This document shows, in pieces, positions 24,483 to 32,849 of a stretch of DNA of 35,530 nucleotides. The first letter of the stretch is position 1. Each line of letters opens with the position of its first letter. Location of the stretch: NCBI GenBank assembly GCA_002791545.1, contig PFXG01000005.1:1-35530 (forward strand), written 5' to 3'. The position numbers and the translations under genes are program-made. The notes under the pieces were generated by a model that was not told the origin of the DNA, did not search any database, and worked only from the letters and a program-made list of their open reading frames with translations. The DNA comes from Zetaproteobacteria bacterium CG_4_9_14_3_um_filter_49_83. GTDB taxonomy: Bacteria > Pseudomonadota > Zetaproteobacteria > Mariprofundales > Mariprofundaceae.

Positions 24483-24787
24483 ACACTGATTCTTTGCACT
24501 TCCATGTAAGACTCCTTAAGTTGGATTATTCATCAATTTTGTTGCGCCCCCGGGACTTGATCCTTGGCAGTTTACCTGCAATAAATTCATCATCAATTGA
24601 CCGTATGCGCGCTGTGTACGTCGTTTTCATCATACTTTGCCATCATCTCAATGGGTCATGAATGCCAGTTTTAGAGTTCCTGAGTGAAATACGGGGTGAA
24701 ATTTACGCTAAATTACCTTGCTATTTTATAAGCTATGATTAAAATACATTAACAATATATCATTTGGAATGTCTGGTGGAGGTGATT
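24483..24787 (+). promoter_or_regulatory. Upstream region of the cbb3 oxidase operon
   Basis: These 305 bases must carry the promoter of ccoN. The last 70 bases are strongly A+T-rich and include TATGAT at 24734-24739, a possible -10 box, with no good -35 partner. I looked for an FNR/Anr box (TTGAT-N4-ATCAA) and did not find one. No terminator hairpin is visible after the AI-2E stop. GGAGG at 24778-24782 is the ribosome binding site of ccoN. Confidence 0.4.
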
Positions 24788-26206
24788 GTGGCAGAGAATG
24801 TTTCATCCGAAGGTCAGCGTTACAACTTTACGATTGTTAAATGGTTTTCTATTTGTGCGGTAATATATCTGGTTGTTGGCGCACTGGTTGGCGACATCAT
24901 TGCCTGGCAACTGGCTTTCCCGTCTTTAAATCTGAACGAGTATCTCAGCTTTGGCCGTTTGCGCCCACTGCATACCAATGCGGTGATTTTCGCATTTGGC
25001 GGTTGTACGCTGATGGCAACGGCATTTTACGTGGTGCAACGAACCTGTGGCGTGCCATTGTGGAGTGACAAGCTGGCCTGGTTCACCTTCTGGGGCTGGA
25101 ATGCGATTATTGTCGGTGCCGTGGTTTCATTTCCCATGGGCTGGACATCCGGTAAAGAATACGCCGAACTGGAATGGCCGTTTGATATTGCCATTGCCAT
25201 CGTCTGGCTCAGCTATATGGGTAATTTCATCATGACGCTGGCGCACCGTAAATCGTCGCATATTTATGTGGCGAACTGGTTCTTCCTCGGTATGATGATC
25301 ATGATCACCTACCTGCATGTGGTGAACTCACTGGCGATTCCGGTCACCATGACCAAGTCCTACTCCATCTTTTCCGGTGTGCATGATGCGATGATCCAGT
25401 GGTGGTGGGGACATAACGCCGTAGGTTTCTTCCTGACAGCAGGCTTCCTTGGTATCATGTATTACTTCATCCCCAAGCAGGCTAATCTGCCGATTTACTC
25501 TTATCGCTTATCCGTGCTGCACTTCTGGGCGCTGATGTTCGGTTATGTCTGGCTGGGCGCGCATCATCTGCAATATACGGCACTGCCTGACTGGGCCGGT
25601 TCACTGGGTGCAGCGGTCTCCATTGCGATGATTATTCCATCGTGGGGTGGTGCAGTGAACGGTCTGATGACCCTCTCCGGCGCCTGGCACAAGCTCCGTG
25701 ATGATTATGTGCTGCGCTTTCTGGTTGTGTCGCTGGCGTTTTATGCCATGTCGACATTTGAAGGGCCGGTGATGTCATTAAAAACCGTCAACGCTTTGAG
25801 TCATTACACTGACTGGACCATTGGCCATGTACATTCCGGCGCTTTGGGCTGGGTCGTGATGGTATCGGTCGGTGCTATTTATCATCTGTTGACCCGTTTG
25901 TGGGGCCGTGAAATTTACTCGGTAAGCCTGGTGAATACGCATTTCTGGATTCACACCATCGGCACAGTGATCTACATCTGCGCCATGTGGGTGTCCGGTA
26001 TCATGCAGGGTCTGATGTGGCGTGCTACTGATGATTACGGCAATTTGTCTTACACCTTTGCTGAAACTGTTGTCGCCATGCATCCATATTATGTGCTGCG
26101 TTCTGTCGGCGGGCTGCTGGTGTTAGCGGGTGGCCTGATCATGCTGTACAATGTTGTGATGACAATTCGCTACGGGCGGCCACAAACTGCCTCGGCGCAG
26201 CACTGA
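24788..26206 (+). CDS. ccoN: cbb3-type cytochrome c oxidase subunit I
   Basis: This is the catalytic haem-copper subunit, which reduces O2 to water with high affinity. I chose GTG 24788 because GGAGG lies five bases before it; the protein then starts [14 protein letters not shown] and has 472 residues, the normal length. Twelve or more helices are visible. Haem and CuB ligands can be seen: His62 in RPLHTNAV, His209 in WWWGHNAV, His259-His260 in GAHHLQYT, and His347 and His349 in [11 protein letters not shown]. Tyr-containing [13 protein letters not shown] is the helix carrying the crosslinked tyrosine in this family. It is the first gene of ccoNOQP. Confidence 0.97.
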
Positions 26207-26217
26207 GGGGGTCGATC

Positions 26218-26928
26218 ATGGGACTGAGCAGAATCATTGGTAACTATTTATCCCGGTCGGTTGAGCCACAGAAGCGTCGTGAAAGAAAATCATTTCAGGA
26301 ATCGATGGAAAAGAACGTCTGGGGCTTCGCTATCATGATTGCTATCGTGGTGTCGATTGGCGGTATTGTAGAAATCGTACCGCTGTTTTATCTCGATAAT
26401 ACCATTGAGAAATTAACCAAAGAAGAAGATGGCATCCGCCCTTATACGGCACTGGAGCTGGAGGGTCGTGATATATACATCCGTGAAGGCTGCTATTTAT
26501 GCCATTCGCAGATGATCCGTCCATTCCGCGATGAAAAAGAACGCTACGGTCATTATTCGCTGGCGGCAGAGTCGAAATACGATCACCCGTTTCAGTGGGG
26601 TTCCAAACGTACGGGTCCGGATTTGGCGCGTGTAGGCGGCAAATATTCCAATGAATGGCAAATTCAGCATTTGCGTGCACCTCGCTCGCTGGTGCCTGAG
26701 TCAGTGATGCCGAACTATGCATTTCTTGAGCGTGCGCCGATTGATGATGCAATTACCGAGAAAAAACTGCGGGCAATGGCTGCTGTGGGTGTGCCGTACA
26801 GTGAAGCTGATTTTGCCGGTGCGGCGGCTGCGGTACGCGGTAAAAATGAAATGGATGCTCTGATCGCTTATATGCAGGTGCTGGGCACGATGGTGAAGTT
26901 TGAGCCGGGGAAAGAGTACCGTGAGTGA
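26218..26928 (+). CDS. ccoO: cbb3 oxidase subunit II, monohaem cytochrome c
   Basis: The 236-residue subunit has one N-terminal membrane helix (about 34-58) and a periplasmic haem c domain with CYLCH (92-96) in the conserved context [29 protein letters not shown] and [11 protein letters not shown], which holds the axial methionine, follow. It carries electrons from CcoP to the CcoN haems. It is somewhat longer than Pseudomonas CcoO because of a roughly 30-residue N-terminal cytoplasmic extension and an insertion near the C-terminus (about 185-210). ATG 26218 is preceded by GAGGGGG. It follows ccoN by 11 bases and overlaps ccoQ. Confidence 0.96.
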
Positions 26929-27145
26929 TTTGATTCAGGATTTCTTTCACACCGATTGGCAGGCCATGACGCGAGCCGATTGGACGGGGCTGGCTATCGT
27001 GTTGGTTTTGACCGTGTTGATGATTGCTCTTTATGCCTGGGTTTTCAGACCATCAAACAAGCAGAAATTTGAGCAATATCGTGATTTTGTTAATGATGAA
27101 CAGGAAGAAGAGAGGAGGGAAGTTGAACATGGCCAAACAAGATAA
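26921..27145 (+). CDS. ccoQ: cbb3 oxidase small subunit CcoQ
   Basis: The 74-residue protein has one membrane helix (about 26-44, [20 protein letters not shown]) followed by a polar, acidic C-terminal tail. Its place between ccoO and ccoP identifies it as CcoQ/FixQ, which stabilises the CcoP-core interaction. GTG 26921 overlaps the ccoO stop by eight bases and has GGGGAAAGAG upstream. It also overlaps the start of ccoP by 17 bases. The N-terminal 20 residues ([20 protein letters not shown]) are longer than in short CcoQ proteins. Confidence 0.85.
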
Positions 27146-27995
27146 ACAGCCACAACACGCTCCAGATACCGGACATGAATGGGATGGTATCCGCGAGCTG
27201 ACCAATCCCCCACCACGCTGGTGGATGATTTCTTTCCATGCGAGTTGGATCTTTTGTGTGGTGTATTTCATCCTTTATCCGTCAATTCCACTGGTCAATG
27301 AAGCGACCAAAGGTGTATTGGGCTGGACGCAGATTGGCGAGTTGAACGAAGCTGTCGCAGAAAATGATAAGATTCGTGCGCCATTCCTGAAACAAGTTGC
27401 ACAAATGAATGGTCAGCAGTTGCTGGCTGACGATGGCATGCGTAACTTTGCCGAGTCTTCCGCAAAAGCAATTTATGGTGATAACTGTGCCGGCTGTCAT
27501 GGTGCAGGCGGTGAAGGCGCACCCGGTTTATTCCCTGTTCTGGCCGATGATGACTGGTTGTTCGGTGGTGATATCGACACCATCACGGAATCCATTGCTG
27601 ATGGTCGTATGGGACAAATGCCCGCACATGCTGAGATGTTGAGTCCGGATGAGATCGGTCAGCTGGCTGATATGGTGCTTGCAGCATCTGAGGGCAAGGC
27701 AACGCCGGAGCAGTTTGCGCAGTTCAACGACATCGGTTGCTCAGGCTGCCATGGTGAAGATGCCGCTGGCGGCGTGATCAATGATCTTGGCAATGGCGCA
27801 GCCAATCTGACAGATCGAATCTGGCGTTTCTCAAACAGTCGTGAAGAGATTATCCGCACCATCAGTTATGGCGTGAATCAGGAAGATGTGCCGAACACAC
27901 GTGTGGCGATTATGCCTGCATTCGGAGAGAAACTTTCTCCGGAAGATATTAAAATGCTGGCGGTCAAAGTGCATCAATTTGGCGGCGGTAAATAG
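27129..27995 (+). CDS. ccoP: cbb3 oxidase subunit III, dihaem cytochrome c
   Basis: The 288-residue protein begins with a soluble region containing HEWDGIRELTNPPPRWW, the family's N-terminal signature, and one membrane helix (about 31-52). Two cytochrome c domains follow, with haem sites CAGCH (120-124) and CSGCH (204-208). Methionines that can be axial ligands are in GQMPAH and AIMPAF. It accepts electrons from soluble cytochrome c and passes them to CcoO. ATG 27129 is preceded by GGAGGGAAG. It is the last of the four structural genes; an extra small ORF lies 31 bases downstream. Confidence 0.96.
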   Translation: MAKQDKQPQHAPDTGHEWDGIRELTNPPPRWWMISFHASWIFCVVYFILYPSIPLVNEATKGVLGWTQIGELNEAVAENDKIRAPFLKQVAQMNGQQLLADDGMRNFAESSAKAIYGDNCAGCHGAGGEGAPGLFPVLADDDWLFGGDIDTITESIADGRMGQMPAHAEMLSPDEIGQLADMVLAASEGKATPEQFAQFNDIGCSGCHGEDAAGGVINDLGNGAANLTDRIWRFSNSREEIIRTISYGVNQEDVPNTRVAIMPAFGEKLSPEDIKMLAVKVHQFGGGK

Positions 27996-28026
27996 CCTGC
28001 ATTGAAAAAAATGGTAGGAGGCTCGT

Positions 28027-28140
28027 ATGGATGCAGTGGTTATAGGTACCATTATCAGTTTGGCAGGTACCATCCTGATATTCGGTTATCTGGCTTATCG
28101 ATTTTTCAAGATAATCGCTACAGATAAAGATGAAGAGTAA
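28027..28140 (+). CDS. 37-residue single-helix protein after ccoP, candidate cbb3 small subunit
   Basis: ATG 28027 has GGTAGGAGG ending six bases upstream, one of the best ribosome binding sites in the locus. The product begins MDAVVIGTIISLAGTILIFG, forms one membrane helix (about 4-28) and ends in the polar tail KIIATDKDEE. It lies between ccoP and the terminator, so it belongs to the structural operon. It is distinct from CcoQ and CcoS, which are both present elsewhere in the locus. Pseudomonas stutzeri cbb3 oxidase contains an extra one-helix subunit of similar size, CcoM, and this ORF could be its counterpart. Sequence resemblance to CcoM cannot be established by eye. Confidence 0.65.
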   Translation: MDAVVIGTIISLAGTILIFGYLAYRFFKIIATDKDEE

Positions 28141-28163
28141 GTGAACTCAACAATTTGAAGGGA

Positions 28164-28194
28164 GGGGTGCGCCAGGCGTACCCCTTTTTGTTTT
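28164..28194 (+). terminator. Rho-independent terminator between ccoNOQP and ccoG
   Basis: GGGGTGCG-CCAGG-CGTACCCC forms an eight-pair stem (one G-T pair) with a five-base loop and is followed by TTTTTGTTTT. It lies 23 bases after the 37-residue ORF and 27 bases before ccoG. It should separate structural from maturation genes or reduce read-through. Confidence 0.8.
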
Positions 28195-28221: not shown

Positions 28222-29688
28222 ATGACCCAGGAAAAGGATACAGCACAGGACGAAGTCAGAGCAAAGGGCGAAGGCACAGAACAAGCCATTGAAGAGATCT
28301 ATGCCGACGCCGTTCACTGGCATGTCAATACAGGTGGCGAAACCATACATGCCATGCGTATCGGTGGCAGATTCAGACGTTTAAAATGGTATGCCGGAGC
28401 ATTGTGGTTAAGTTATTTTTTACTGCCTTATGTACGCTGGGAGGGGCAGCAAGCCATTCTGTTTGATGTTCCGGGAAGGCAATTCCACTTTTTCTCACTG
28501 ACCATCTGGCCGCAGGACATCTGGATGTTGTCACTGGTGCTGATATTGCTGGCCATGACATTGTTTGGCGTGACGGCGGTTGCAGGGCGTGTTTGGTGCG
28601 GTTATTTCTGTTTTCAGACCGTGTGGACGGACTGGTTCACCTGGCTGGAAGATAAAATTGAAGGCAACCCGATTCAGCGGCGTAAACTTGATGCCGCGCC
28701 ATGGGGCGCCCATAAAATCACACTGAAGCTTTTCAAACACGCGATCTGGATGCTGATCGCCGTGGTAACCGGCGTGACATTTGCTGCCTATTTCACTGAT
28801 GCTTTTGACCTGTGGTATCGCTACATCACGCTGGATGCACCCATGGTTGCCTGGGTGGTATTGGCAGCGTTCGTTTTTGGCACCTACGTGTTTGCCGGTT
28901 TTATGCGTGAACAGGTCTGCTTCTGGTTATGCCCGTATGCCCGGATTCAGAGTGTGATGATGGATAAAGATACCATTGTGCCCACCTATGATGAAGCGCG
29001 TGGAGAGCCACGTGGAAAAGTTAAGGGAAAAATTGAGAGGGGAGATACAACGGCTCGCGGAGATTGTGTGGACTGCCATTTGTGCGTTGGTGTATGTCCG
29101 ACCGGCGTGGATATACGGGAAGGTTTGCAGGAGGGTTGCATCATGTGCGGTATGTGTATCGATGCCTGTAACGGGGTGATGGGAAAGGTTGGACGGCCTG
29201 GCGATTTGATCCGCTACACCTCGCGCAAGGAGCTCTCAGGTGAAAGGTTGCCGTATTGGCTCAAGCGACCACGTGTGCTGACCTATCTGACCATCTTTAC
29301 TCTGGCAGTATCGGGTATCACCTACGGACTGACCCATATTCCACCGGTCGAACTGTCCATAGTGCATGAAAGACAACCGCTCTATTTGCAGATGTCCGAT
29401 GGCAGCATTCAGAACAAGTACACCATCAAAGCCGTCAATAAAACGCCGGATGATCTGCATTTACGCGTCAGCATTGAGGGGCTGGATGGTGTTGAACTGA
29501 GAATTGATGGTGGTCACGAAGTTCTGTTGCGGGCTGGTAAGCTGATTCCAATCCACGCTTATTTGCGTGCAATGCCTACGCAATTGAGCGAAGAAAATAG
29601 CAAGATTCGTTTTGTGTTTGAGAGCGTGGGCAGCCCTGATAAGATCAGCCTTACAAAAGGTTCCGTATTTATCGGGCCGAAGAAATAA
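28222..29688 (+). CDS. ccoG: cbb3 oxidase accessory protein CcoG (FixG), ferredoxin-like
   Basis: This 488-residue membrane protein has helices near 57-72, 100-120, 173-192 and 207-227, and a last one at 342-362. Two ferredoxin-type 4Fe-4S motifs are at CVDCHLCVGVCP (282-293) and CIMCGMCIDACN (306-317). Upstream motifs VWCGYFCFQTVWTD and QVCFWLCPYARIQ are typical of the NapH/CcoG family. The C-terminal 110 residues form a periplasmic immunoglobulin-like FixG_C domain. CcoG reduces Cu(II) to Cu(I) for assembly of the CuB centre. GGGAG five bases before ATG 28222 supports the start. It opens the maturation gene set ccoG-fixH-ccoI-ccoS. Confidence 0.96.
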   Translation: MTQEKDTAQDEVRAKGEGTEQAIEEIYADAVHWHVNTGGETIHAMRIGGRFRRLKWYAGALWLSYFLLPYVRWEGQQAILFDVPGRQFHFFSLTIWPQDIWMLSLVLILLAMTLFGVTAVAGRVWCGYFCFQTVWTDWFTWLEDKIEGNPIQRRKLDAAPWGAHKITLKLFKHAIWMLIAVVTGVTFAAYFTDAFDLWYRYITLDAPMVAWVVLAAFVFGTYVFAGFMREQVCFWLCPYARIQSVMMDKDTIVPTYDEARGEPRGKVKGKIERGDTTARGDCVDCHLCVGVCPTGVDIREGLQEGCIMCGMCIDACNGVMGKVGRPGDLIRYTSRKELSGERLPYWLKRPRVLTYLTIFTLAVSGITYGLTHIPPVELSIVHERQPLYLQMSDGSIQNKYTIKAVNKTPDDLHLRVSIEGLDGVELRIDGGHEVLLRAGKLIPIHAYLRAMPTQLSEENSKIRFVFESVGSPDKISLTKGSVFIGPKK

Positions 29689-29711: not shown

Positions 29712-30218
29712 ATGAGTGTGATGAGCGAGCAGTTGAAAGAAGACATGAAAAACCCATGGCTTCGGGCGGTCATAGCAACTGTGGCCGTCACTGTGCTGGT
29801 CAATTTTATCTTTATTGGATACGCCTTTTTATCGCCTCCGAATCTGGTGGTGCAGGACTATTATGAGAAAGGTAAAACCTATTTTCACGATCAGGAGGCT
29901 ATCCGCAAAGAGGCCGGGCAGGCGTGGCGATTACAGTTGCTGGTGCCGCAGCATGTGGTGCTGAATGAACAACAGCCATTTCGTTTGTATGCCATGGATC
30001 ATCAGGGTAAACCCGTATCGGCAGGCGATGTTACGCTTTATGCCTACCGCCCCAGTGATGCCGCGCTGGATTTTCAGTCGAAGCTGGCCATGACTGATAT
30101 CGGTACATTTACCGCCACGGTGCTTTTCCCACAACCGGGGCATTGGGATCTGATTGCCCGAATCACTTCGGATGCCGGAGCCTTCGATATAGCCCAGCGC
30201 ATTTTTGTCGAAAAATAA
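29712..30218 (+). CDS. fixH: FixH/CcoH family cbb3 assembly protein
   Basis: The 168-residue protein has one membrane helix (about 17-39) followed by NLVVQDYYEKGKTY, the motif that marks the FixH family, and a beta-rich periplasmic domain (about 65-165). CcoH interacts with the oxidase and stabilises late assembly intermediates. GGAG seven bases before ATG 29712 supports the start. It lies 23 bases after ccoG and 16 bases before ccoI, as in other cbb3 loci. Confidence 0.9.
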   Translation: MSVMSEQLKEDMKNPWLRAVIATVAVTVLVNFIFIGYAFLSPPNLVVQDYYEKGKTYFHDQEAIRKEAGQAWRLQLLVPQHVVLNEQQPFRLYAMDHQGKPVSAGDVTLYAYRPSDAALDFQSKLAMTDIGTFTATVLFPQPGHWDLIARITSDAGAFDIAQRIFVEK

Positions 30219-30234
30219 TTCAATAACCGCTGCC

Positions 30235-32682
30235 ATGAAGAACTGCCGACATTGTGGACTTCCGGCTGTCGGTGCGACTGCCTGCCACGGCGAAGTGGCC
30301 GGAGAGCAATATGTCTTTTGCTGCGCCGGTTGTCTGACGGTTTGTCAGGCTATCTCCGAGGCCGGACTTGACGGCTTTTATGAGCGGGTCCGGCAGCGTG
30401 AAAGTACACTGCAACCACCACCGGATATGCCATCCGACATCGATCAATACGATCTGGAAGAGGTTCAGCAGGATATGGTTATCCGCCATGCCGATGGTCG
30501 TCGTGAAGCACTGCTGCTGATCGAGGGTATCCATTGTCCGGCATGTATCTGGCTGATTGAAAAAGGTCTTGCGGAATTGTCAGGTATAACGCTTGCCGAG
30601 GTGAATTTGTCCCGTCAGCGGCTACGTGTGGTGTGGGATCAACAGCAGCTGAAGCTGTCGAGTATCATGCAGCGACTTGCGGCGCTGGGTTATGCAGCTG
30701 TTCCCTATAATCAGGAAACAGCCGAAGGACAGATTTTCAAACAAAACCGGCGCTTGCTGTTTCGCATGGGTTTTGCCGCATTTGGCGCGATGAACATCAT
30801 GTGGATTTCGATTGCACTGTATGCCGGAGACGCTTCAGGCATCAGTGTGGAACATCGGCAGTTCTTTCACTGGGTGAGTCTGGCCATTGCCACGCCGGTG
30901 TTGCTGTACTCCGGTGGGCCGTTTTTATCGGCAGCGGGGCGGGGCCTGAGGCAAGGGCAATTGGGCATGGACTTGCCGATAGCCATTGGTGCAGTGGCTA
31001 CATTCGGATACTCACTGTGGCAGACGCTGAACCACGGCACACACGTCTATTTTGATACGGTGGTCAGTTTTTTGTTTGTGATTCTGATCGGACGTTATCT
31101 GGAAGCGATGGCGCGGCGCAATGCCTCTTCAGCATCGTTGCGCTTGATGGAATTACAACCGCGGATGGCTACGTTACTACATGCGGGGACAGAACAACGC
31201 GTGGCAGTGCGAAAGTTGCAGATCGCAGACCGAATCCTGATTCGCGCCGGTGATAAAGTACCGGTTGATGGCGATGTGGAAGAAGGGGTAAGTCATCTGG
31301 ATGAATCAATGCTGAGCGGAGAATCCAATATGGTGCGTAAGCAGCAGGGGGATCCGGTATCAGCCGGTACACTGAATGTTGATGCGCCATTGATTGTTGT
31401 TGTCCGTTATACAGCTAACAACACAAAATTGGCCCGCATGATTCATCTGGTTGAAGCTGCACAGGCCAGCAAAGCACCGGTGCAAAAGCTGGCAGACCGG
31501 ATTGTTCCGTGGTTTGTTGCAATGACACTGGGACTGGCTGCTTTGACCTTCGTTTACTGGCTGCCGTACGACATAAATACGGCGCTGCTGGCTGCTTTTG
31601 CGGTATTGATTATCACTTGTCCGTGCGCCTTGGGGCTGGCTACGCCGATGGCGATTGCGGTGAGCTCCGGAGTGGGCGCCAAAGCCGGAGTGCTGGTGCG
31701 AAATGGGGATGCACTGGAGCGCTTGTCCGGAGTTGACCATGTCGTATTTGATAAAACAGGAACACTGACGCATGGCCGTATGCGCGTGGTGCAGGTTGAT
31801 TCACTGAGCCAGGCCATTGGCAAGCAGCAGGTGTTGCAGCTGGCTGCTTCTGTCGAGCGCAATTTTCCACATCCGCTTGCCCGCGCAATTTGTCATGAAG
31901 CCGAATCACAGGGCTGTGCATGTCTGCCGACGCTGGAACACGCGATGATTCCGGGAATGGGTGTTGAGGCACAATGGGCGGGCCGGAAGTTGTATCTGGG
32001 AAATGCCAGGCTGATGCGTCAACGCGGTGTGATTTTGTCAGTTGAGTTGCAGTCCCGGGAACAAGGTATTGAGGATTCCATGGGTATCTGCGTTTGGCTG
32101 GCTATGGATGCTGAGTTGATCGGACTCATTCACGTGCAGGATAGCTTGCGTGATGGTGCGATCGAGGTGATTGCGGCGCTGCGTCAGGCCGGCATGGGTC
32201 TGACCATGTTAACCGGTGACTCTGCGCGGGCGGCGGCGTATGTGCGCCAGCAACTGGGCGAGATGGATGTGGTGGCCGAAGTGTTGCCAGAGAAAAAAGC
32301 ACAATTAGTAAGACAATTGCGGGAGTCCGGTAAAACCGTATTGATGGTGGGCGACGGTGTCAACGATGCGCCAGCGCTGGCGCTCGCCGATGTCGCCATT
32401 GCCATGGGCTCCGGCTCGGATGCATCGATGGAAACATCTGATGTGGTGCTGATGAGTTCGGACATCCGGCATGTACTGTATGCGGTGAATCTTGGCCGAC
32501 AAACCTTGAAGACCATCCGGCAGAATCTCATGCTGTCACTGGCCTATAACGTGCTGTTGGTGCCTGTGGCGATGGCGGCACTGATTACGCCGGTGTTTGC
32601 TGCCATTGCCATGCCGCTGAGTTCGCTGATGGTGATCGGCAACGCCATGCTGATTCGCCGGCGGATGAAGGGGAGCAAATGA
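30235..32682 (+). CDS. ccoI: Copper-transporting P1B-type ATPase CcoI (FixI)
   Basis: The 815-residue protein has an N-terminal Cys-rich metal-binding stretch (CRHCGLPAV, YVFCCAGC), then a heavy-metal-associated domain with GIHCPACIWLIEKGL (98-112). Eight membrane helices are expected; the sixth contains CPC (462-464). The P-domain has DKTGTLT (Asp506 phosphorylated), SGES in the actuator domain, and GDGVNDAPALALADVAIAMG in the hinge. CcoI exports Cu(I) to the periplasm for cbb3 assembly rather than for detoxification. ATG 30235 is chosen; no strong ribosome binding site is seen, and an in-frame TTG at 30205 would overlap fixH. The stop overlaps the ccoS start as ATGA. Confidence 0.95.
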   Translation: MKNCRHCGLPAVGATACHGEVAGEQYVFCCAGCLTVCQAISEAGLDGFYERVRQRESTLQPPPDMPSDIDQYDLEEVQQDMVIRHADGRREALLLIEGIHCPACIWLIEKGLAELSGITLAEVNLSRQRLRVVWDQQQLKLSSIMQRLAALGYAAVPYNQETAEGQIFKQNRRLLFRMGFAAFGAMNIMWISIALYAGDASGISVEHRQFFHWVSLAIATPVLLYSGGPFLSAAGRGLRQGQLGMDLPIAIGAVATFGYSLWQTLNHGTHVYFDTVVSFLFVILIGRYLEAMARRNASSASLRLMELQPRMATLLHAGTEQRVAVRKLQIADRILIRAGDKVPVDGDVEEGVSHLDESMLSGESNMVRKQQGDPVSAGTLNVDAPLIVVVRYTANNTKLARMIHLVEAAQASKAPVQKLADRIVPWFVAMTLGLAALTFVYWLPYDINTALLAAFAVLIITCPCALGLATPMAIAVSSGVGAKAGVLVRNGDALERLSGVDHVVFDKTGTLTHGRMRVVQVDSLSQAIGKQQVLQLAASVERNFPHPLARAICHEAESQGCACLPTLEHAMIPGMGVEAQWAGRKLYLGNARLMRQRGVILSVELQSREQGIEDSMGICVWLAMDAELIGLIHVQDSLRDGAIEVIAALRQAGMGLTMLTGDSARAAAYVRQQLGEMDVVAEVLPEKKAQLVRQLRESGKTVLMVGDGVNDAPALALADVAIAMGSGSDASMETSDVVLMSSDIRHVLYAVNLGRQTLKTIRQNLMLSLAYNVLLVPVAMAALITPVFAAIAMPLSSLMVIGNAMLIRRRMKGSK

Positions 32683-32849
32683 GTGTAATTTACGGGCTGA
32701 TTCCCGGCATGATACTGCTGGGACTGATCAGTGTACTGATTTTTTTCTGGGCGGTACGCAGCGGGCAATATGACGACATGGAAGGTCCGGCACATCGCAT
32801 TCTTGATGATGACGATCTCGATGATGCTGATTCCGGACCGACCAAATGA
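32679..32849 (+). CDS. ccoS: cbb3 oxidase maturation protein CcoS
   Basis: The 56-residue protein has one membrane helix (about 5-25) followed by the family hallmark FFWAVRSGQYDDMEGPAHRI and a very acidic tail with DDDDLDD. CcoS is needed to insert haem b and copper into CcoN. Its ATG overlaps the ccoI stop (ATGA), and GGGGAGC upstream serves as the ribosome binding site. Confidence 0.95.
   Translation: MSVIYGLIPGMILLGLISVLIFFWAVRSGQYDDMEGPAHRILDDDDLDDADSGPTK

Follow-up and report, generated by a model that had tools for sequence, protein, structure and literature searches.

A conserved one-helix ORF between ccoP and ccoG, linked to one type of cbb3 oxidase in Zetaproteobacteria and a Nitrosomonadales family

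Small one-helix oxidase proteins and the cco operon of the window

One known small protein of a cbb3 oxidase is CcoM of Pseudomonas stutzeri (PDB 5djq_N; NCBIfam model NF041600), a single helix of 36 amino acids with an acidic residue close to the N-terminus and a basic tail. It is a subunit of the enzyme, according to the accessible text of one report (PMC10433244), and is required for its stability, not its activity, according to that of another (PMC8267372). CcoQ/FixQ (PF05545) is a small cbb3 component with one transmembrane helix as well, and is encoded in the oxidase operon. In Campylobacter jejuni, the single-helix proteins CcoX (Cj1486c, DUF4006) and CcoY (Cj1485c, 33 amino acids) are encoded directly after ccoP; in the accessible text, deletion of ccoX abolished oxidase activity, deletion of ccoY lowered it, and CcoX was detected by mass spectrometry in gel bands together with oxidase subunits (PMC8267372). 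In a different oxidase superfamily, the bd-type oxidases, CioY of C. jejuni and CydX of Escherichia coli are small single-helix components, and CioY (34 amino acids) is described as encoded immediately beyond the genes of its oxidase (PMC11955535, accessible part).

The window analyzed here is a stretch of 35,530 nucleotides (contig PFXG01000005.1) from Zetaproteobacteria bacterium CG_4_9_14_3_um_filter_49_83. It carries a cco operon, and Pfam models identify its CcoN, O, Q, P, G, H and S:

24764..26206, forward strand: ccoN (PF00115, E 9.2e-114; start from the mechanical ORF list)
26218..26928, forward strand: ccoO (PF02433 FixO, E 2.9e-85)
26900..27145, start approximate, forward strand: ccoQ (PF05545 FixQ, 29.6 bits against a cut-off of 29)
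27129..27995, forward strand: ccoP (PF14715 FixP_N and PF13442)
28016..28021, forward strand: ribosome-binding site AGGAGG, 5 nt upstream of the ATG of the ORF
28027..28140, forward strand: ORF for a 37-amino-acid protein with a single transmembrane helix, ATG start and TAA stop (placeholder name: post-ccoP small protein)
28159..28189, forward strand: terminator-like hairpin closing the ccoNOQP-ORF unit (RNA fold)
28222..29688, forward strand: ccoG (PF13746 and PF11614 FixG_C)
29712..30218, forward strand: ccoH (PF05751 FixH, E 1.7e-21)
30205..32682, forward strand: ccoI-like copper P-type ATPase (translation, position and tblastn synteny in named loci)
32679..32849, forward strand: ccoS (PF03597 FixS, E 5.8e-22)

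The gene order is ccoN, ccoO, ccoQ, ccoP, ORF, hairpin, ccoG, ccoH, ccoI, ccoS, and the start of the ORF lies 31 nt beyond the ccoP stop codon (27993-27995). The original prediction of a one-helix ORF of 37 residues with a good ribosome-binding site between ccoP and a terminator is borne out, as is its statement that CcoQ and CcoS are present apart from the ORF; CcoG and CcoH have separate genes too. The hairpin folds at -22.1 kcal/mol (z -2.96), with two out of 200 shuffles folding equally well, and is not among the sites listed by a consensus terminator scan, so that the terminator call rests on the fold. Lying after ccoP and before the hairpin, the ORF closes the structural gene unit, as judged from sequence.

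Conservation and linkage to one CcoP type

A query with the single protein against 61 genomes gave matches at E<=10 in 13 of them, and in 11, including the genome of the window itself, the match lies between ccoP and ccoG. With a profile of 11 rows, matches at E<=4.2e-7 occur in 26 out of the 78 genomes in the class, and the best of the remainder has an E-value of 0.022. All 26 carriers (two of them identified as ORFs rather than through tblastn) have the ORF between ccoP and ccoG, and in 15 the coordinates place its start only 9 nt from the ccoP stop. No homologue away from ccoP was found in these 78 genomes. The carriers include the cultured Mariprofundus ferrooxydans PV-1, M. micogutta and M. 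erugo. Absence from relatives had been proposed as one outcome that would speak against the prediction; homologues are present after ccoP, and the claim withstands this check.

The ORF is not a chance reading frame, because its homologues occupy the same place in many genomes. A ribosome-binding-like site precedes 27 of the 28 zetaproteobacterial-type sequences and all 20 second-family sequences (see below). Pairwise median dN/dS values, calculated only from pairs with 0.2<dS<2, are 0.35 for the former and 0.22 for the latter; these medians are rough because synonymous sites are near saturation, and single pairs reach 2.99. A genuine, conserved gene occupies 28027-28140, and the medians indicate that it is under purifying selection.

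The presence of the ORF follows the type of CcoP. A sample of 398 genomes of the phylum includes 42 from Zetaproteobacteria in which CcoP is matched at E<=1e-25. The ORF occurs in 25 out of 25 genomes with a CcoP at least 63% identical to that of the window and in none of the 17 with a weaker match (best E 2.2e-49), while in the 26th carrier (G064) ccoP is cut by a contig end. Hence, the ORF is linked to one oxidase type.

A second branch was reached through a phylum search with a profile of 28 rows, in which one weak match outside the class (genome G363, E 0.01) adjoins ccoP. Within the order to which G363 belongs (280 genomes), strong matches (n = 4) occur only in one family, here called f82, and four other matches (E>=0.003) lie in long frames. 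This family is probably Gallionellaceae, a name that we infer. The ORF profile matches 29 out of 80 f82 genomes at E<1e-6; the 25 loci retrieved from these all have the ORF between ccoP and ccoG, and the remaining four have it after ccoP. A CcoP match is present in 52 out of 80. For the 23 CcoP-bearing genomes missed by the profile, which is weighted toward the zetaproteobacterial sequences, the regions downstream of ccoP were read: 20 have this CcoP or a similar one, and three have a different CcoP type. A more divergent form of the ORF (MSHDFVYWALMI...) follows ccoP in 14 of the 20, five have no ORF there and one more is cut by a contig end; in the three with the different CcoP type, no ORF was found after ccoP on reading. 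In total, 43 out of 52 CcoP-bearing f82 genomes carry the ORF after ccoP. The branch is divergent (pattern MN[HQ]D.VFWGVII...), and its profile matches the zetaproteobacterial one at P 2.1e-10. The five genomes without the ORF despite the same CcoP type (G471, G408, G424, G462 and G453; loci L244, L247, L250, L254 and L255) are natural losses; the ORF is therefore dispensable at least there, and they are useful for testing dispensability.

In 67 ccoP-downstream regions from other families of Pseudomonadota, four of which are short through contig ends (425, 311, 640 and 1044 bases), no match was found at E<=1e-3. The profile used for these regions does find the divergent f82 forms, which had contributed to its construction. 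Among the sampled genomes, the ORF family seems confined to two lineages.

Two Nitrosomonadales MAGs from groundwater (L081 and L083), which belong to f82 (the coordinates of G477 and G478 coincide with those of G407 and G426), have a ccoNOQP-ORF-GHI operon of zetaproteobacterial type. They nest within the zetaproteobacterial clade of a 68-row CcoP tree (support 100/90), while the 23 native f82 rows form a clade of their own (100/100). The same tree separates Zetaproteobacteria, f82 and the alternative CcoP type of Zetaproteobacteria from the remaining Pseudomonadota sampled (100/99), a grouping for which the program warned of long branches. The operon of both MAGs was apparently acquired by horizontal transfer, as judged from the tree. 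The ORF of L081 and L083 is of the zetaproteobacterial type and native f82 genomes carry the other; taken with the CcoP tree, the ORF type therefore tracks the oxidase and not the host.

Comparison with CcoM, CcoX, CcoY and other family models

AlphaFold2 models the ORF product of the window as one helix (residues 3-34, mean pLDDT 87.5) and carries no information on partners. Lysine and arginine average 0 in the first eight residues of the 28 and 20 sequences of the two types and are more numerous on the C-terminal side in 28 out of 28 and 20 out of 20. By the positive-inside rule, this bias implies an N-out/C-in orientation for all 48 proteins checked, and a single helix of this topology is predicted. 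Weighted conservation peaks at Asp2 and Val4 (98% each). The conserved helix positions 4, 7, 11, 14, 18 and 21 share one face (peak at 101 degrees) and are mostly small residues (V4, G7, S/A11, G14, V/I18, Y/W21). Across the whole family, 306 out of 5000 shuffles are equally periodic, against 574 when only the zetaproteobacterial-type sequences are used and 2226 with the f82 sequences alone, and the stripe is therefore only suggestive.

With 37 residues, a helix over positions 3-34 and this charge bias, the ORF product has a CcoM-like build, and CcoM, named as a precedent in the original prediction, is usable as a working precedent. Tests of homology to CcoM did not establish it. A true but diverged CcoM that was relocated into the oxidase operon is an unlikely reading, to which several observations nonetheless lend some weight. 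Aligned by hhalign, the ORF family and CcoM show an ungapped match with the Asp in register (P 1.1e-4 for the zetaproteobacterial profile and 3.8e-5 for the whole family), none of 300 full-column shuffles of the whole family aligns as well, and members of the second family begin with Met, two residues and Asp, like most CcoM sequences. Against this stands that 28 out of 300 shuffles score as well once Asp4 and the tail are kept. For the f82 set alone, the counts are one (full-column) and 121 (Asp4 and tail kept) out of 300; for a 45-row set they are one and 12, and for the 28-row set zero, zero and four, out of 300. A CcoQ decoy scores about equally (23.3 versus 24.3 for CcoM). Moreover, the NCBIfam CcoM model NF041600, a curated equivalog with a 40-bit cut-off, matches 0/28 and 0/22 members at E-values up to 10, and a CcoM profile recovers none of the post-ccoP ORFs in 78 genomes. 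Known ccoM genes also lie elsewhere: in 21 out of 21 loci checked, no cco gene occurs within about 1.5 kb on either side. The likeness in the transmembrane core is thus not beyond controls. On the NCBIfam model, the PDB profile search, the genome search with the CcoM profile, the column shuffles and the CcoQ decoy, an identification of the ORF as CcoM was not accepted as shown. The two proteins share a similar architecture, and their in-register resemblance, no stronger than that of the CcoQ decoy, is suggestive. As a side observation, one CcoM (L102, from family f35) matches the FixQ model below its cut-off (E 1.1e-4), and CcoS does likewise; this could mean that FixQ describes one-helix cbb3 proteins only loosely, or that they have a common origin.

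By position, we regard C. jejuni ccoX and ccoY, which sit directly after ccoP (PMC8267372, accessible text), as the nearest precedents, and the original prediction overlooked them. The downstream neighbors differ, being ccoZ and ccoH in C. jejuni and ccoG beside the ORF. DUF4006 has no match in the ORF of the window (E up to 10) or in 28 aligned relatives (E up to 1), and CcoY resembles the ORF by position and size only, as a one-helix ORF of about 33 amino acids shortly after ccoP. In our analysis, P. stutzeri CcoM and C. jejuni ccoX and ccoY would serve as the best working precedents.

PF05545 matches neither the ORF of the window nor its aligned relatives, and CcoQ is encoded separately at 26900-27145. 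Locus L086 of M. ferrooxydans PV-1 likewise encodes both CcoQ and the post-ccoP ORF. Its ccoQ lies at L086:2905-3141, with a product 67% identical to the CcoQ of the window; the PV-1 genome paper, in its accessible part, states that none is apparently encoded. The NCBIfam model NF045534 (small_EYxxD) describes a small membrane protein of like size and kind (37 positions); with relatives scored singly, its best score is 26.2 bits against a cut-off of 29, for a second-family member, and the ORF of the window has no match. No Pfam or NCBIfam family exceeds its cut-off for the ORF family. Weak matches to Syndecan (Pfam, E 0.039) and to pilin and TrbE models of NCBIfam were taken as generic helix matches, and two ORFs from family f9 (L131 and L132, E 0.003-0.014) were set aside as DUF3149-like and not near ccoP. 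Both f9 ORFs encode one helix, contain a DPVV stretch and neighbor ABC-F-like genes; one scores just above the Pfam cut-off and one below. No report of the post-ccoP ORF family was found in the literature, as covered outside most subscription journals. In Sideroxydans ES-1, two cbb3 clusters are described, with proximal-type ccoN and ccoO up on Fe(II)-citrate (PMC8788666, accessible part). The post-ccoP ORF is a new family of an already known kind of small oxidase protein.

A different conserved ORF was seen in the zetaproteobacterial genus g8 (L193-L198). In six out of six regions read, 60-72 amino acids are encoded some 57-142 nt beyond the stop codon of ccoP, apparently as two helices (pattern ...FSIDSMFGI.WP.Y...RIF.W.PT.LIG.YWL.FGG...). 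One sequence was scanned and has no Pfam or NCBIfam family above cut-off. This ORF is a candidate for another oxidase small protein.

Proposed role and the iron-oxidizer context

The product of the ORF most likely serves the cbb3 oxidase as a small accessory subunit or as an assembly factor, as far as its genomic pattern tells. We consider it quite probable that it is a small accessory protein of its own oxidase acting as follows. Translation of the ORF at the end of the ccoNOQP transcript would yield a product that inserts as one transmembrane helix, with the N-terminus (nearly invariant Asp2 and Val4) on the periplasmic side and the charged tail in the cytoplasm. The conserved stripe would then probably pack against helices of CcoP, CcoN or CcoH, and this packing would stabilize the assembly of the CcoNO and CcoQP halves, in a mode of action like that of CcoM, CcoQ or the C. 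jejuni proteins CcoX and CcoY. Thus, the claim of an extra cbb3 component holds for a conserved, cbb3-linked small membrane protein, on synteny, co-occurrence, transfer and selection; binding partner, stabilizing role and stable membership in the oxidase are what we infer beyond it.

The product could instead be a transient helper of assembly or copper insertion that works with CcoG, H, I and S and is no subunit of the finished enzyme. We find this rather improbable, even though the ORF adjoins ccoGHIS, such a helper would leave the same genomic pattern as a subunit, and the sole experimental positional analogues found affect activity through roles that are unclear in the accessible text (PMC8267372). 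In the window, the ORF precedes the hairpin and so stands with the structural genes, not with those from ccoG onward, and the spacing to ccoP is tight in 15 out of 26 zetaproteobacterial genomes. A regulatory ORF or leader peptide acting on ccoG, in which the peptide itself would not matter, would suit a short ORF beside a hairpin upstream of ccoG and is very unlikely in view of the amino-acid conservation (weighted 98% for Asp2 and for Val4), the dN/dS medians below 1 and the ORF's own ribosome-binding site. Hitch-hiking in the operon by a membrane protein unrelated to the oxidase, for which some genomes with the same oxidase and no ORF might speak, can be largely dismissed, as the class search never places the ORF away from ccoP (26 carriers at E<=4.2e-7, the closest other match at 0.022) and the ORF was transferred along with its oxidase.

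A far-reaching and quite doubtful proposal is that the ORF defines a new, unnamed cbb3 subunit family, not derived from CcoM, of one oxidase clade common to Zetaproteobacteria and a Nitrosomonadales family (probably Gallionellaceae), and that it adapts the enzyme to microaerobic respiration fed by Fe(II). If true, the adaptation might act, for example, via docking of a periplasmic electron donor or via stability of the oxidase at very low O2. Microaerophilic iron oxidation is a known trait of both lineages, given the probable name of the second, and the confinement of the ORF family to a single oxidase clade within them makes a link to this lifestyle testable. Terminal oxidases can have tiny one-helix subunits that annotation easily overlooks, and a genetically linked candidate in cultured Mariprofundus strains makes the role of such a helix in cbb3 oxidases testable.
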